Shown: positions 10,067 to 14,998 of the stretch, in pieces
Position numbering within the stretch: position 1 is the stretch's first letter
Layout of the letters: each line of letters begins with the position of its first letter
Source: a bacterium
GTDB lineage: Bacteria; Vulcanimicrobiota; Vulcanimicrobiia; Vulcanimicrobiales; Vulcanimicrobiaceae
Assembly (NCBI GenBank): GCA_028869385.1
Contig: JAGWSR010000091.1
Span: forward strand, 1-51,594
DNA length: 51,594 nucleotides
Reading direction: 5' to 3'
Translations under genes and position numbers: made by a program
The notes under the pieces: model-generated
What the model saw: the letters and a program-made list of their open reading frames with translations, nothing else
What the model was told of the DNA's origin: nothing
Databases searched by the model: none

Positions 10067-10909
10067 TTGTTCGGCGTGCTCTGCAGCCTGCTCGCGGCTG
10101 CGGCGTACGGCGCGGCTGATTTCTGCGGCGGCCTCGCGTCGCGGCGTACCGCGATCCTCGCGGTGGTCGTCATCTCGCAGTTCGTCGGACTGCTCGTGCT
10201 CCTCGCCTTGCGTCCGTTCGTTCCGGGGCACGCATCGCCGAGCGATCTCGGGTGGGGAGCGCTCGCCGGGCTCTGCGGCGCGGTCGGAATCGCGCTCCTC
10301 TACCACGCGCTCGCGATCGGCAAGATGGGTGTCGTCTCGCCGATCACGGCCGTGCTCGCGGCGGCGTTACCGCTCGCGGTCGGCGTCGCGCGCGGCGAGC
10401 ATCTGAGCGCGCTGCAAGGCGTCGGCATCGCGCTCGCCCTCGTCGCGATCGTGCTGATCTCGATCTCGACCGAGGAGAACGGCACGCGCGAGATCGCCAC
10501 GGCGGGCGTGCGCGAAGCGATCCTCTCCGGTATCGCGCTCGGCGGTTTCTACATCTTTCTCGCGGTGCCGCATCGCACGGCGGGGCTCGACCCGCTCGCG
10601 AGCGCGCGCCTCGCTTCGGTACTCTTGCTGCTCGCGATCGCGGTCGCCACGCGAACGCGCCTGCGACCCTCCGCGGGAGGCGCCGCGTTGATCGTGTTGT
10701 GCGGAACGCTCGACATGACGGCGAACGCCCTCTATGTGGTTGCCGCTTACGCGGGCTATCTTTCGATCGCCGCGGTGCTCACGTCGCTCTACCCGGCGAG
10801 CACCGTCGCGCTCGCGAGGATCGTGCTTCGCGAGCGCCTGCAGCGCTCTCAGCTCGCCGGCGTCGCGCTCGCGCTCGTCGGTGTCGCCTTGATCGCGGCG
10901 CGCTCGTAG
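10067..10909 (+). CDS. EamA/DMT-superfamily transporter
   Basis: Drug/metabolite-transporter-like permease of about 280 residues, with ten hydrophobic segments in two five-helix halves. The internal repeat is visible as LQGVGIALALVAIVLISI and LAGVALALVGVALIAARS, each closing a half. The start is placed at TTG 10067, four bases after the RNase J stop. An upstream in-frame start inside rnj would add a charged segment with no family match. Substrate unknown. The 3' end overlaps the convergent glycosyltransferase gene by 61 bases. Confidence 0.85.
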   Translation: MFGVLCSLLAAAAYGAADFCGGLASRRTAILAVVVISQFVGLLVLLALRPFVPGHASPSDLGWGALAGLCGAVGIALLYHALAIGKMGVVSPITAVLAAALPLAVGVARGEHLSALQGVGIALALVAIVLISISTEENGTREIATAGVREAILSGIALGGFYIFLAVPHRTAGLDPLASARLASVLLLLAIAVATRTRLRPSAGGAALIVLCGTLDMTANALYVVAAYAGYLSIAAVLTSLYPASTVALARIVLRERLQRSQLAGVALALVGVALIAARS

Positions 10910-12033
10910 GCCCGGAGCGTCGCGGTCGCCGCGGCCTCCCAGGTGTACTCGCTGCGAATGCGTCGCGCGAGTTCGGCGCGCCGTTCCGCGTCGTCGTCGA
11001 AGCGCGTCCATGCCGTGTGTACCGCGCGTTCGATCGAGAACGCGTCGCACGGATCGCAGTAGTAGGCGCCGTCGCGAAAGTACTCGGCCTCGAAGGCGAG
11101 ATTGCCGACGACGATCGTGCGCTCCAGGAGCGCGGCTTCGAGCGAGGAGAGCCCGGGCGATTCGAAGATGCTCGCGAGCACGTGTACGCGTGCGCCGGCG
11201 TAGAGATGCTTGAGCTTCGCGTGCGAAAGAAACGGATAGTGGTAGACCGGCGCGCTGCGCCCATTCGCGAGCGCCTGCACGCGCGCGAATATCTCTTGGT
11301 CGGTGCGCTCGCCCACGAACACGACCGGCACGTCGAGGCGCTTGAGCGCGAGCATGAGAAAGTCTTGCTGTTTGCGTGCGTCGAATCGCGCGCTCATCAT
11401 CACGTACGGGCGTCCGCGCAACTCTTCCGGGAGCTCGTCGGGCGATGCGCCGTCGAAATCGCGTGCGTCCACCGCGTTCGGAACGATCGCGTGCGCGGCG
11501 AAGTCGCCGAGAAACGTGAAGATCGCGCTCAACTCCATCCACGAGTTCGGCAAGATGAGATCGACGCGTTCGAGGATCGCGCGGCACTCCGCCGTGAACG
11601 GATGCGGCGCGAACGCGGAGAGCTTCGTGCCGTCGAGCGTGAAGTCGAGCGCGCGCGCGGCGATCGCGCGCAGGTCGTTGCGCGCGAAACCGAGGTCGAG
11701 CGTCGCGCCGTCGGGATAGCGGGAGAAGAGCCAGCGCCGAGCCGCATCCATCCAACGCACGAGATGATGCGGCGCCCAAATCGGCGAGAAGGCGATCGGC
11801 ACGCGTCCGCGCAGAGGCGCGAGCGCCTCGACCTGCGGCGCGAGCATATGCGGAGCGTGCAGGCTCGTCCAGAGGTGCACCACGTCGTAGGGCTGAGCGC
11901 GGGCGCTCTCGGCCGGGCCGACGTCAACGACAACGCCGAGGGCACGAAGCGCCTCGGCGGTCTTGGTCATCTGCACCACGTCGCCGCCGAAGATGCGGTC
12001 GGCGTCGGGGCGAGGGACGAAGAGCACGCGCAT
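10849..12033 (-). CDS. Glycosyltransferase, GT4-like (GT-B fold)
   Basis: 394 residues. The N-terminal Rossmann half opens MRVLFVPRPDADRIFGGDVV, with the glycine-rich acceptor loop. The C-terminal half carries the nucleotide-sugar motif ESPGLSSLEAAL, the GT4 E-x7-E. No signal peptide, so it probably acts at the cytoplasmic face on a cell-surface polysaccharide or LPS. It lies 18 bases after the dual-PilZ genes on the same strand, so its expression may be tied to theirs. The last 20 codons overlap the end of the convergent EamA gene; both frames look intact. Confidence 0.88.
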   Translation of the reverse strand: MRVLFVPRPDADRIFGGDVVQMTKTAEALRALGVVVDVGPAESARAQPYDVVHLWTSLHAPHMLAPQVEALAPLRGRVPIAFSPIWAPHHLVRWMDAARRWLFSRYPDGATLDLGFARNDLRAIAARALDFTLDGTKLSAFAPHPFTAECRAILERVDLILPNSWMELSAIFTFLGDFAAHAIVPNAVDARDFDGASPDELPEELRGRPYVMMSARFDARKQQDFLMLALKRLDVPVVFVGERTDQEIFARVQALANGRSAPVYHYPFLSHAKLKHLYAGARVHVLASIFESPGLSSLEAALLERTIVVGNLAFEAEYFRDGAYYCDPCDAFSIERAVHTAWTRFDDDAERRAELARRIRSEYTWEAAATATLRAYERAAIKATPTSASATPAS

Positions 12034-12051: not shown

Positions 12052-12924
12052 TTAGGCGTTACGAATCTTCGAGAGTTGCACCGCATGCGTGAAACGAGCG
12101 ATCTCCTCACGCGTGTAGCCGTCGATCTCGAGAAAGGCGACGCCGTATACCTCGCGGTCGCGCACGGGCTGGAAGCGCGTGACGACGCGGCCCCGCAGCG
12201 CCATCTCTTCGAAGGGGCGGCGCAGATCCGGGCGTCCGGCACGGCGCGGCGTGGCGCCCGAGAGGTCGAGCACCGCGGTCTCTTCGGGATAGACTTCGAG
12301 GACGCTCGACGGCATCGTGATGCGCAGATCCACGAGCACGCCGATCGGCAGCGGCTGCGAGCAGTTCATCCGGATGCCGGTGCTCGAGATATCGCCGACG
12401 CGCGCTTCGGTCCAATCCTCGCCTTCGCGGCGGAAGCGCATGGGGAAGGCGCTGAGCGCGCGGTAGCTGCCGCGGCGTTCGCGGTCGGTGGTCGGGAGCG
12501 CGTCGAGCGAGCGCTGGATCGAGCGGGACGCTGCGGCGCGGCGCTCGAGCTCGCGGATCGCCCGAGCGAGCGCGTCGATCTGCGATTCGCGCATGTCGAA
12601 GGTGAGGTAGTATTCGAAGCGCGCTCCGGCTTGGGCGTTGCGTCGCGCCTCGACGCGCGCGTTCGCCGTGATCGTAGCGCCGCCGATGCCGAGATCGAAT
12701 TCGACCTCGGTGCCGCGCTCCATGAGGACGAGCGAGCGAATCTTCGCCCCGTGCGCGGTGACCTCCATCAGCGTTCCGTACACCGGAGCCGGCAAGCGGC
12801 GCACGCTCATGACGACGGGCATCTCGAGCGAGTGCGCGTGCGACGTCTGGGGCATGGGCGGTGGCGGTGCGGGCGTGGGCGCCGCGTTTGCGGTACTGGT
12901 CGTTCGCTTAGGAATCCATGTCAT
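12052..12924 (-). CDS. Dual PilZ-module protein (paralogue 1, first module degenerate)
   Basis: 290 residues, with GGAGGGG just before the ATG at 12924. Residues 30-110 resemble a PilZ barrel but lack the binding motifs: the RxxxR position reads SHAHSLE, and the (D/N)xSxxG position reads MEVTAHG. A helical linker (about 112-140) leads to a second module that keeps both motifs, RGSYR (151-155) and DISSTG (178-183). PilZ domains bind cyclic-di-GMP. The C-terminus, DGYTREEIARFTHAVQL, is nearly the same in the neighbour. Together with the next gene it is a tandem duplication. Likely a c-di-GMP sensor; its partner is unknown, though the GT4 gene follows directly. Confidence 0.85.
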   Translation of the reverse strand: MTWIPKRTTSTANAAPTPAPPPPMPQTSHAHSLEMPVVMSVRRLPAPVYGTLMEVTAHGAKIRSLVLMERGTEVEFDLGIGGATITANARVEARRNAQAGARFEYYLTFDMRESQIDALARAIRELERRAAASRSIQRSLDALPTTDRERRGSYRALSAFPMRFRREGEDWTEARVGDISSTGIRMNCSQPLPIGVLVDLRITMPSSVLEVYPEETAVLDLSGATPRRAGRPDLRRPFEEMALRGRVVTRFQPVRDREVYGVAFLEIDGYTREEIARFTHAVQLSKIRNA

Positions 12925-12942
12925 GGTCGTCCCCTCCGAGGG

Positions 12943-13809
12943 TTACTCCGATCGCAACCGTGCGAGTTGAACGGCGTGCGTGAAGCGGGCGATCTCTTCA
13001 CGCTGATAGCCGTCGATGTCGGTGAATTGTACGCCGAAAACTTCCCGCCCGCGCGTGGGCTGGAAGCGTGAGACGACACGACCCGCGATCGTCATTTCTT
13101 CGAATGGGCGGCGATTGTCCGGAATGCGCACGCTGCGCGGTCCGAACGGCGTTATCTCGGTGCGCGCCCCAGCGGGCGGGAACACCGCGAGCACGTGGCT
13201 CGGTAGGCTGAACCGAAGCTCGACCTGCGTTCCGAGCGGGATCGGCTCCTGGCACATGAGGCGCAGGCCGCCGGTGGAGATGTCGTTGGCCTCGGCGACG
13301 ATGGATGGCTTGCCCGGCACGCGGTAGCGTACCGCGAAGGCGACCATCGTGCGCACGCTGCCGCGACGCTGTTTGGCGCTCTTGGCGATCGGTGCCGGTT
13401 TTGCCGGCGCCTTGGACTCGGCCCGCGTGAGCGCTTCGCGGCGCTGCATCTCGTGGATCTCGCGAGCGAGCGCGGCGCGTTCGGTACTCGTCATCCGCGA
13501 GAAGTTGACGCCGTACTCGTAACCGCCGCCCGAGGGCGGGGTCGCGCGGGTGACGACGCGGCCCTTGAGGGGCATCGCCGGTGCGCCCGGACGCGCTTTG
13601 ATCTCGAAGTTGACGTCGCGATCGCGCTCGATGAGGATCAGCGAGCGCAGCCGGCAGCCCGTCTCCGAAATGTTGATCAGGGTGCCGTATACGGGCGCGG
13701 GAAGTCCGCTCACCTCGATCGCGATCGGGAGCTCGATGGATTGCCGGTAGTAACGCCGCTGATTGCTCCGTTCTAAGTTTTGAACGGAGCGGCGCGATAG
13801 CCAGAGCAT
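12943..13809 (-). CDS. Dual PilZ-module protein (paralogue 2, both modules intact)
   Basis: 288 residues, the upstream member of the duplicated pair, 18 bases before the next gene. Module 1 (about 17-105) has RRYYR (18-22) and NISETG (46-51). A helical, Ala/Lys-rich linker follows (about 106-147). Module 2 has RGSVR (149-153) and DISTGG (176-181). The C-terminal block DGYQREEIARFTHAVQLARL matches paralogue 1. Two intact motifs predict two cyclic-di-GMP sites per chain. The ATG at 13809 sits inside one arm of an inverted repeat (13801-13809 with 13905-13913). No strong ribosome site is visible upstream. Confidence 0.88.
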   Translation of the reverse strand: MLWLSRRSVQNLERSNQRRYYRQSIELPIAIEVSGLPAPVYGTLINISETGCRLRSLILIERDRDVNFEIKARPGAPAMPLKGRVVTRATPPSGGGYEYGVNFSRMTSTERAALAREIHEMQRREALTRAESKAPAKPAPIAKSAKQRRGSVRTMVAFAVRYRVPGKPSIVAEANDISTGGLRLMCQEPIPLGTQVELRFSLPSHVLAVFPPAGARTEITPFGPRSVRIPDNRRPFEEMTIAGRVVSRFQPTRGREVFGVQFTDIDGYQREEIARFTHAVQLARLRSE

Positions 13810-13913
13810 CTCGCTATAGGGTTCGGCCTCGCGAATCAGGCTCCTTAACCCGGAGCTTACGTTTCATGAGTGTAAAGTCCCAAGTTCATGAAATCTTTAC
13901 ACGAATGCTCTGG
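13801..13913. repeat. Nested inverted repeats over the PilZ operon start
   Basis: Outer arms CCAGAGCAT (13801-13809) and ATGCTCTGG (13905-13913); inner arms GTGTAAAG (13870-13877) and CTTTACAC (13895-13902). TTCATGA also occurs twice (13863-13869 and 13885-13891). This 112-base gap between the IDH-family gene and the PilZ operon must hold the PilZ promoter. The outer left arm contains the PilZ start codon. An operator or a leader hairpin that controls translation is possible. Confidence 0.5.
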
Positions 13914-13921
13914 ATGATAAC

Positions 13922-14998
13922 CTAAAGGGTGGACCACACGTCGAGTTTGCGCTTCACGCCGGCGATCACGGCGTCCGTGAACTCCGTCGTCGTTGCGTGT
14001 CCGCCGAGATCGGCGGTCGCGATGCCCTCGTGTACCGCCTCGAGCGCGGCCTCGTACACGGCGCGTGAGGCGTTGGCCGCGCGACGGTCGTCCACGTACG
14101 AGAGGAGCGCGCCCGCCGCGAGGATCATCGCGAGCGGATTGGCGACGTTCTTGCCAAAGAGGCGCGGCGCGGTGCCGTGCGGCGCTTCGGCCATGACGAC
14201 CGAGGGTTTGAGATCGGCGTCGAACGAGAGGAGCACCGACTCCGCGCCGGCGATCGATCCGAAGAGTTGCATGACCAGATCCGAGAGGCAGTCGCCGTCG
14301 CGGTTGAGCGACGGGATGACGAGCGGAAGGTCACCCGCGTTCGAGAGCAGGAGCGCATAGGTCGCGTCGATGAGCTGCGGCTCGTAGGGGACCTCGGGAT
14401 GGCGCTCGGCGGCGGCATCCATCTCCTCTTTGAGCATGCCTTCGTACACCGGGCTCACCGTGTACTTGGGTCCGCCGAACACCTTGGCGCCCATCTTTTT
14501 AGCGTGCACGAAGGCGTACTCGGAGACGTAGCGGCACACGCCGCGCGAGATGGTCTCCGTGCGGTACGCGATCTCGTCCACACCCTCGCCCTCGCGCCAT
14601 TCCTTGGCGCCGTAGGCGTCGCCGACGGCCATGCGGACGACCGAGATCGGTGCGTGGATGCCTGCGACCGGACGCACGCGCGGCAGCTTGCGCCCGGTGC
14701 GAACGATCACTTTGCCGTCGATGGCTTTGCGCAGGATCGCGTTCGGCGAGCCGACGTCGCCTTTGACTTCCGGCGTGATCGTCGCCGCTTTGAGTCCGAG
14801 CTTGTGAACGAGCATCGCCTCGGCCGCGTCGCGCACCACCTGATTGTTTGTCGCGCGACGCGCTTCGAGCGAGAGGTCGTAGCGCTCGAATGCGAGCTCG
14901 ATATCGATCACCGATGCATCGAGGACGCGCAGCGATTCGGCGAGCAGCTCTTGTCCGGTCTGGTCGCCTTCCAGAACGACGATCGTGGGCTTAGGCAA
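13922..14998 (-). CDS. Isocitrate/isopropylmalate dehydrogenase-family protein, atypical
   Basis: 358 residues from TTG at 14998, five bases after AGGAG. The metal-binding aspartates are present (NRDGDCLSDLVMQLFG), as is the cofactor loop EAPHGTAPRLFGKNVANP. So it should be an NAD(P)-dependent beta-decarboxylating dehydrogenase. However, the usual substrate-loop motif (REN(T/S)E...Y.G) is replaced by VVRMAVGDAYGAKEWREGEG. The serine-arginine region reads SPNAILRKAIDGKVIVRTGR. The substrate (isocitrate, isopropylmalate, homoisocitrate or tartrate-like) cannot be assigned. It is divergent from ftsK with a 36-base gap. Confidence 0.82.
   Translation of the reverse strand: MPKPTIVVLEGDQTGQELLAESLRVLDASVIDIELAFERYDLSLEARRATNNQVVRDAAEAMLVHKLGLKAATITPEVKGDVGSPNAILRKAIDGKVIVRTGRKLPRVRPVAGIHAPISVVRMAVGDAYGAKEWREGEGVDEIAYRTETISRGVCRYVSEYAFVHAKKMGAKVFGGPKYTVSPVYEGMLKEEMDAAAERHPEVPYEPQLIDATYALLLSNAGDLPLVIPSLNRDGDCLSDLVMQLFGSIAGAESVLLSFDADLKPSVVMAEAPHGTAPRLFGKNVANPLAMILAAGALLSYVDDRRAANASRAVYEAALEAVHEGIATADLGGHATTTEFTDAVIAGVKRKLDVWSTL

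Follow-up and report, generated by a model that had tools for sequence, protein, structure and literature searches.

What do two adjacent genes for double PilZ proteins do in a member of a largely uncultured bacterial phylum? The window analysed here, a stretch of 51,594 nucleotides, comes from contig C52 of a metagenome-assembled genome (3.08 Mb) of Candidatus Eremiobacterota. According to a preliminary description of the locus, the two proteins, here called PZ_A and PZ_B, could link surface glycan synthesis to c-di-GMP by way of a neighbouring glycosyltransferase gene. In this report, we find that PZ_A and PZ_B are probably c-di-GMP receptors, a conclusion drawn from their sequence motifs, and we favour, with a probability of roughly 0.58, a reading in which both are soluble proteins of the cytoplasm, belong to the YcgR-like receptors in the broad sense and influence flagellar motility. 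The locus contains these genes:

10849-12033, minus strand: GT4-type glycosyltransferase, 18 bp 3' of PZ_B; linkage kept only in genera g1, g52 and g25.
12052-12924, minus strand: PZ_B, 290 amino acids; module 1 degenerate, module 2 canonical (ORF, Pfam, alignment, AlphaFold).
12943-13809, minus strand: PZ_A, 288 amino acids; two PilZ modules with RxxxR and (D/N)xSxxG in both (ORF, Pfam, alignment, AlphaFold).
13922-14998, minus strand: gene of the isocitrate/isopropylmalate dehydrogenase family, 5' of PZ_A; adjoins PZ_A in nearly all genomes with PZ_A.

On the minus strand the order is thus dehydrogenase, 112 bp, PZ_A, 18 bp, PZ_B, 18 bp and GT4. The two PilZ genes are the tandem duplicate that had been described: adjacent open reading frames whose products are 43% identical over a full-length alignment (52% in module 2, 33% in module 1) and are each predicted to contain two PilZ barrels. 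Both exceed the curated Pfam cut-off for PilZ (PF07238; 91.6 bits for PZ_A and 48 for PZ_B, against 22.5), and the same scan found no DNA-binding or other effector domain in either. An Rfam scan of the window revealed no c-di-GMP riboswitch and no other RNA. The dehydrogenase falls far under every NCBIfam cut-off for isocitrate, isopropylmalate, homoisocitrate and tartrate dehydrogenases. Its near-universal adjacency led us to consider a functional tie to PZ_A, which we set aside: PZ_A lies between the dehydrogenase and an EamA transporter in about 17 loci, and because gene order is conserved all the way from RNase J to the menaquinone genes, the adjacency by itself says little. Most PZ_A and all aligned PZ_B sequences begin with M-x-W (13801-13809 and 12916-12924 in the window), which may be a short docking motif; the remainder of the N-terminus is variable and predicted to be disordered.

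The modules of the two proteins, all on the minus strand, are these:

13414-13764, minus strand: PZ_A module 1 (residues 16-132), canonical PilZ barrel with a C-terminal helix at 108-132 (Pfam, AlphaFold; VIA match to BcsA PilZ 9fp0, Z 11.4).
12946-13371, minus strand: PZ_A module 2 (residues 147-288), PilZ with an insert (VIA match to MotI 5vx6, Z 14.4; Alg44, YcgR, PP4397 and MrkH at Z about 12).
13120-13200, minus strand: insert in PZ_A module 2 (residues 204-230), 27 residues predicted as a short helix and a beta hairpin, which mark the subfamily (AlphaFold).
12949-13011, minus strand: predicted closing helix of PZ_A module 2 (residues 267-287; AlphaFold), common to stand-alone relatives.
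12832-12924, minus strand: PZ_B N-terminus, rich in Pro, Ala and Thr and predicted to be disordered; stands in place of the RxxxR stretch.
12508-12834, minus strand: PZ_B module 1 (residues 31-139), predicted PilZ fold lacking the ligand motifs, conserved (AlphaFold; dN/dS 0.06-0.17).
12055-12480, minus strand: PZ_B module 2 (residues 149-290), PilZ with RxxxR, DxSxxG, insert and closing helix.

Residue by residue, the ligand motifs are distributed as the preliminary description had it. PZ_A has them in both modules (R18-xxx-R22 and N46-x-S48-xx-G51 in module 1; R149-xxx-R153 and D176-x-S178-xx-G181 in module 2), and PZ_B in module 2 only (R151-xxx-R155 and D178-x-S180-xx-G183). The equivalent places in PZ_B module 1 read Q26..A30 and E54-V-T56-A-H-G59, and neither motif is kept. 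The AlphaFold models, built on a 13-sequence alignment, show for each protein two six-stranded barrels with a helix after each barrel; their confidence is medium (mean pLDDT 73 for PZ_A and 67 for PZ_B), and the arrangement of the modules relative to each other is not readable from them because pTM is low (0.46 and 0.40, respectively). In Foldseek searches the full-length matches are the two-domain proteins MotI, PlzA, VCA0042 and MrkH. The degenerate first module of PZ_B is not detected by the Pfam PilZ model at E<=0.001, but AlphaFold predicts a PilZ barrel for it, as had been supposed; among solved structures this barrel comes closest to MotI and to the PilZ part of YcgR (5y6g, chain residues 112-242), with Z 12.1 for both over 106-114 residues. 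A search of PDB sequences with PZ_A gave a single, chance-level match (SCO1997, E 0.095), and a profile search gave none.

The C-terminal block DGY-x-REEIARFTHAVQL, which the preliminary description had both proteins share, is present, but not as a part of its own: it corresponds to the helix that closes PilZ module 2. The AlphaFold model and the occurrence of this helix in stand-alone relatives of module 2 rule out a separate domain, and the helix that closes PZ_A module 1 is its predicted counterpart. The insert in module 2 had gone unmentioned, and ordinary PilZ domains are without it.

YcgR, FlgZ (PP4397) and MotI (DgrA) are two-domain flagellar c-di-GMP effectors; the traits of YcgR proper include binding to MotA and FliG and a slowing of rotation. 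With PZ_A and PZ_B they share two consecutive beta barrels, the second of them a canonical PilZ domain with both motifs and a closing helix; they also share residence in flagellated genomes, and they are the top structural matches. We read PZ_A and PZ_B as YcgR-like motility effectors because RxxxR and the helix that closes module 2, both conserved in the Eremiobacterota subfamily, occupy the matching positions. The resemblance has bounds. The first module is of the PF07238 type, and only that family, with no YcgR-N match, was found there by Pfam; further, PZ_A module 1 retains its c-di-GMP motifs, and PZ module 2 bears the helix-plus-hairpin insert. In MrkH, a transcription regulator, and in PlzA, as in PZ_B, a PilZ-like domain at the N-terminus precedes a canonical PilZ domain. 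These two proteins differ from PZ_B in that its module 1 is close to a paralogue with ligand motifs (PZ_A) and that no sign of DNA binding was found.

The distribution of the family points to flagella. We searched 149 genomes of the phylum with a profile built from PZ_A and PZ_B (E<=1e-12) and looked for FliG in the same set. This survey of the architecture in other genomes, as the preliminary description had proposed, found the PilZ type with insert and closing helix, either full-length or as a stand-alone protein of the module-2 type, in 44 genomes, and FliG in all 44 of them. Within the taxonomic family, the type occurs in 43 of 46 FliG-positive and in 0 of 34 listed FliG-negative genomes (Fisher, 1.8e-19), and by genus in 19/21 versus 0/16 (Fisher, 1.2e-8), P values that treat genomes or genera as independent, which, given shared ancestry, they are not. 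Three flagellated genomes of the family (G024, G101 and G031) had no PZ match. Many of the matches are stand-alone proteins that consist of a single module 2, insert and closing helix included; in several genera the gene has FAD-linked oxidase genes on one side and a NamZ gene on the other. Eight FliG-positive species of genus g9 have kept this member. In G010, a g9 genome that is 99% complete on one contig and has no FliG, it occupies the same position, with the same flanking genes, but is split over three frames:

L145:7100-7570 (G010, contig C1, about 951,100-951,570): broken stand-alone insert-type PilZ gene, a frame-shifted pseudogene.

PilZ proteins as such are not lost with flagella, since FliG-negative relatives retain an ordinary PilZ protein of about 130-134 amino acids that has no insert (L146-L154). 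The PZ family is thus found only in flagellated relatives, and PZ_A and PZ_B therefore probably tie c-di-GMP to swimming.

Two conserved elements lie upstream of PZ_A:

13822-13847, minus strand: sigma-28-like promoter TAAGG-N15-GCCGAA, located 12 nt upstream of the start codon of PZ_A; kept in g1, g52, g31 and g7.
13895-13901, minus strand: TGTAAAG, second conserved upstream element, 54-55 bp before the promoter-like element; g1, g52 and g31.

In the four genera named, the promoter-like element keeps the form TAA(G/T)(G/C)-N15-NNCGA(A/T), with N14 in one g52 genome, and ends 12-13 nt before the start codon, so near that the mRNA would be almost leaderless. The flagellins of the genome have TAAAG-N15-GCCGAT or close variants, a cheY-like gene has TAAAG-N15-GCCGAT, and the head of the fliK-flgD-flgE-flbD-motA-motB-fliM operon has TAAGG-N15-GCCGAT; the PZ_A element departs twice from the strict sigma-28 consensus. 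A genome scan with TAARG-N15-GCCGAW yielded eight sites against four for a control pattern, among them a flagellin, the CheY-like gene, the head of the fliK–fliM operon and PZ_A, but these statistics rest on pattern scans, and because the pattern was widened after the PZ_A site had been seen, so as to take it in, the scan is supporting rather than decisive. A first pattern, TTAAG-N17-CCGA, had fewer matches than its control and was dropped. If the element functions as it appears to, the PZ genes would probably be switched on with the flagellar regulon by sigma-28. For FlgZ/PP4397, a YcgR counterpart, sigma-54 and sigma-FliA promoters both drive transcription (PMC6093933). Upstream of PZ_A, TGTAAAG forms an inverted pair, the other copy lying at 13871-13877 on the plus strand, and TGTAAAG also occurs upstream of PZ_A in g10.

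The genome that carries the pair encodes 23 GGDEF domains, 11 EAL domains and 13 PilZ modules, together with six Flagellin_N matches, flagellar operons and a FliA/WhiG sigma factor above the cut-off. PZ_A and PZ_B lie outside any flagellar cluster, which speaks against a YcgR-like role in motility. Another PilZ gene (G000:C75:7032-7697, L142; 221 amino acids) stands inside the flagellar export operon, directly 3' of fliP-fliQ-fliR-flhB-flhA, and is followed by a CheY-like gene with a sigma-28-like promoter. This gene is a more obvious counterpart of YcgR than PZ_A and PZ_B are, and it likewise counts against the motility reading. It is probably the genome's true YcgR counterpart, and if so, PZ_A and PZ_B would act at another flagellar step.

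That step could be the assembly, placement or expression of flagella, or the regulation of flagellar genes, rather than the motor. The co-occurrence with FliG fits this alternative equally, and a division of labour is plausible because a separate PilZ gene is already present in the flagellar operon. Against it, the closest folds are those of the motor-acting MotI and YcgR, though the transcription regulator MrkH is among them too, and neither protein has a DNA-binding or other effector domain that Pfam could find. We therefore regard an effect away from the motor as rather unlikely, albeit the strongest of the alternatives.

The coupling to surface glycan synthesis fares worse. The preliminary description had placed the PilZ genes in an operon with GT4; in a variant of the proposal that we considered, GT4 would glycosylate flagellin. 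In the window, GT4 does lie 18 bp behind PZ_B; in g25 it follows PZ_A, by about 18 bp in the genomes that retain the junction, and it comes after PZ_B in g1 and, closely, in one g52 genome (G102). Wherever a GT4 relative occurs, it adjoins a PilZ gene, except in g12, whose sole relative is unlinked to PilZ genes, and in the case of two weak matches in G028. Control of glycan synthases by PilZ domains also has precedents in BcsA and Alg44, whose PilZ domains match PZ_A modules at Z 10-13. But those domains are fused to, or part of, machinery for glycan synthesis or export, whereas the PZ locus has only a patchily linked GT4, beside PilZ in three genera; a stable linkage of receptor and glycan-synthesis gene was not found. 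GT4 is missing from the PilZ locus in eight other genera with PZ_A (g31, g7, g10, g28, g11, g27, g33 and g29), most of which have no GT4 at all; in g7 and g10, PZ_B is elsewhere, with no GT4 there. In a further g52 genome (G103), GT4 is reduced to a short remnant (L091:6270-6332, in a stretch towards 3832), followed by what looks by eye like an IS5-type transposase ORF, while PZ_A and PZ_B are intact. No named glycosyltransferase model matched GT4 above its curated cut-off. As a general function, then, glycan coupling does not hold, since the linkage exists in three genera only and the family tracks flagella. We consider it improbable for PZ_A and PZ_B, although a glycan role, possibly the glycosylation of flagellin, may exist in the three genera with an adjoining GT4.

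Least probable of all is that the pair are ordinary receptors of c-di-GMP that serve some process other than motility, with a flagellar link that reflects shared ancestry only: flagellated and non-flagellated genera may be separate clades, and one within-genus loss was looked at, but in that genus the stand-alone gene decays along with the loss of FliG, and another PilZ protein of the same taxonomic family does not track flagella.

The first module of PZ_B bears on how the pair would work. In an alignment of nine PZ_B sequences from five genera (g1, g31, g52, g7 and g10), RxxxR is missing from module 1 in all nine, and the place of the second motif is taken by EVTAHG, EVNANG, HITSSQ, HLSPSE or a close variant. 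The PZ_B orthologues group with an additional, shortened paralogue from G011 in a single clade with good support (98/99), so that the loss of the motifs is most simply a single event, retained thereafter. A degenerating pseudogene is ruled out by the between-species dN/dS of this module (0.06-0.17), which does not exceed the 0.15-0.20 in module 2 of the same protein or the 0.06-0.24 in the modules of PZ_A. These values indicate that module 1 is in use without its ligand motifs and under strong purifying selection. The degenerate module of the preliminary description is thus a conserved one with a predicted fold. PZ_B is directly 3' of PZ_A only in g1, g31 and g52, and lies elsewhere in the genome in g7 and g10. 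The G011 paralogue, third of its kind there, adjoins PZ_B (L056:16190-16858), has a degenerate first module and stands, as judged by eye, behind an MnmA-like tRNA-modifying gene.

If PZ_A and PZ_B do act on flagellar motility, PZ_A would be able to bind two loads of c-di-GMP and PZ_B one. Module 1 of PZ_B would bind none and could serve instead as a fixed domain for protein docking or as a scaffold, like the N-terminal domain of YcgR; the effect on motility would be that of a brake. We infer the binding of c-di-GMP, the control by sigma-28, the target and the direction of the effect.

The double-PilZ kind is already known, since a published survey includes two-PilZ architectures both with and without motifs: proteins with two PilZ-like domains are the second most common PilZ architecture (PMC11800159). 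PZ_A falls within the class that has two PilZ copies with motifs in both. PixB of Myxococcus xanthus, whose two PilZ domains each contain RxxxR and which binds c-di-GMP in vitro (PMC8316039), shares the PilZ-PilZ architecture; it differs in having a GNAT acetyltransferase domain and in lacking the motif Ser in both PilZ domains, whereas PZ_A and PZ_B have no output domain and gave no GNAT match in Pfam. Our literature search on tandem PilZ proteins, or on PilZ in Eremiobacterota, found none, other wordings gave general precedents only, and no study of c-di-GMP control of motility was found for the phylum. What seems to be new is the subfamily, its tie to the flagellated members of the phylum, and a tandem pair in which one module can be seen both intact and without its motifs.

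These features give the pair a wider interest. According to the published survey, the N-terminal PilZ-like domains of YcgR-like proteins may stem from separate origins in different branches of PilZ (PMC11800159), but the known descendants are too divergent to show how they arose. In PZ_A and PZ_B, a motif-bearing and a motif-free copy are adjacent and 43% identical, and the motif-free module is under strong selection; the change is therefore directly testable. We suggest, tentatively and at lower odds than the motility reading itself, that the two proteins preserve the step in which a c-di-GMP-binding PilZ module became a docking domain without ligand, similar in kind to YcgR-N. The PilZ subtype with insert and closing helix also serves as a marker that follows flagella through a largely uncultured phylum. 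If the proposal is true, a protein with two binding sites and a partner with one would together make a graded c-di-GMP switch on the flagellar motor.
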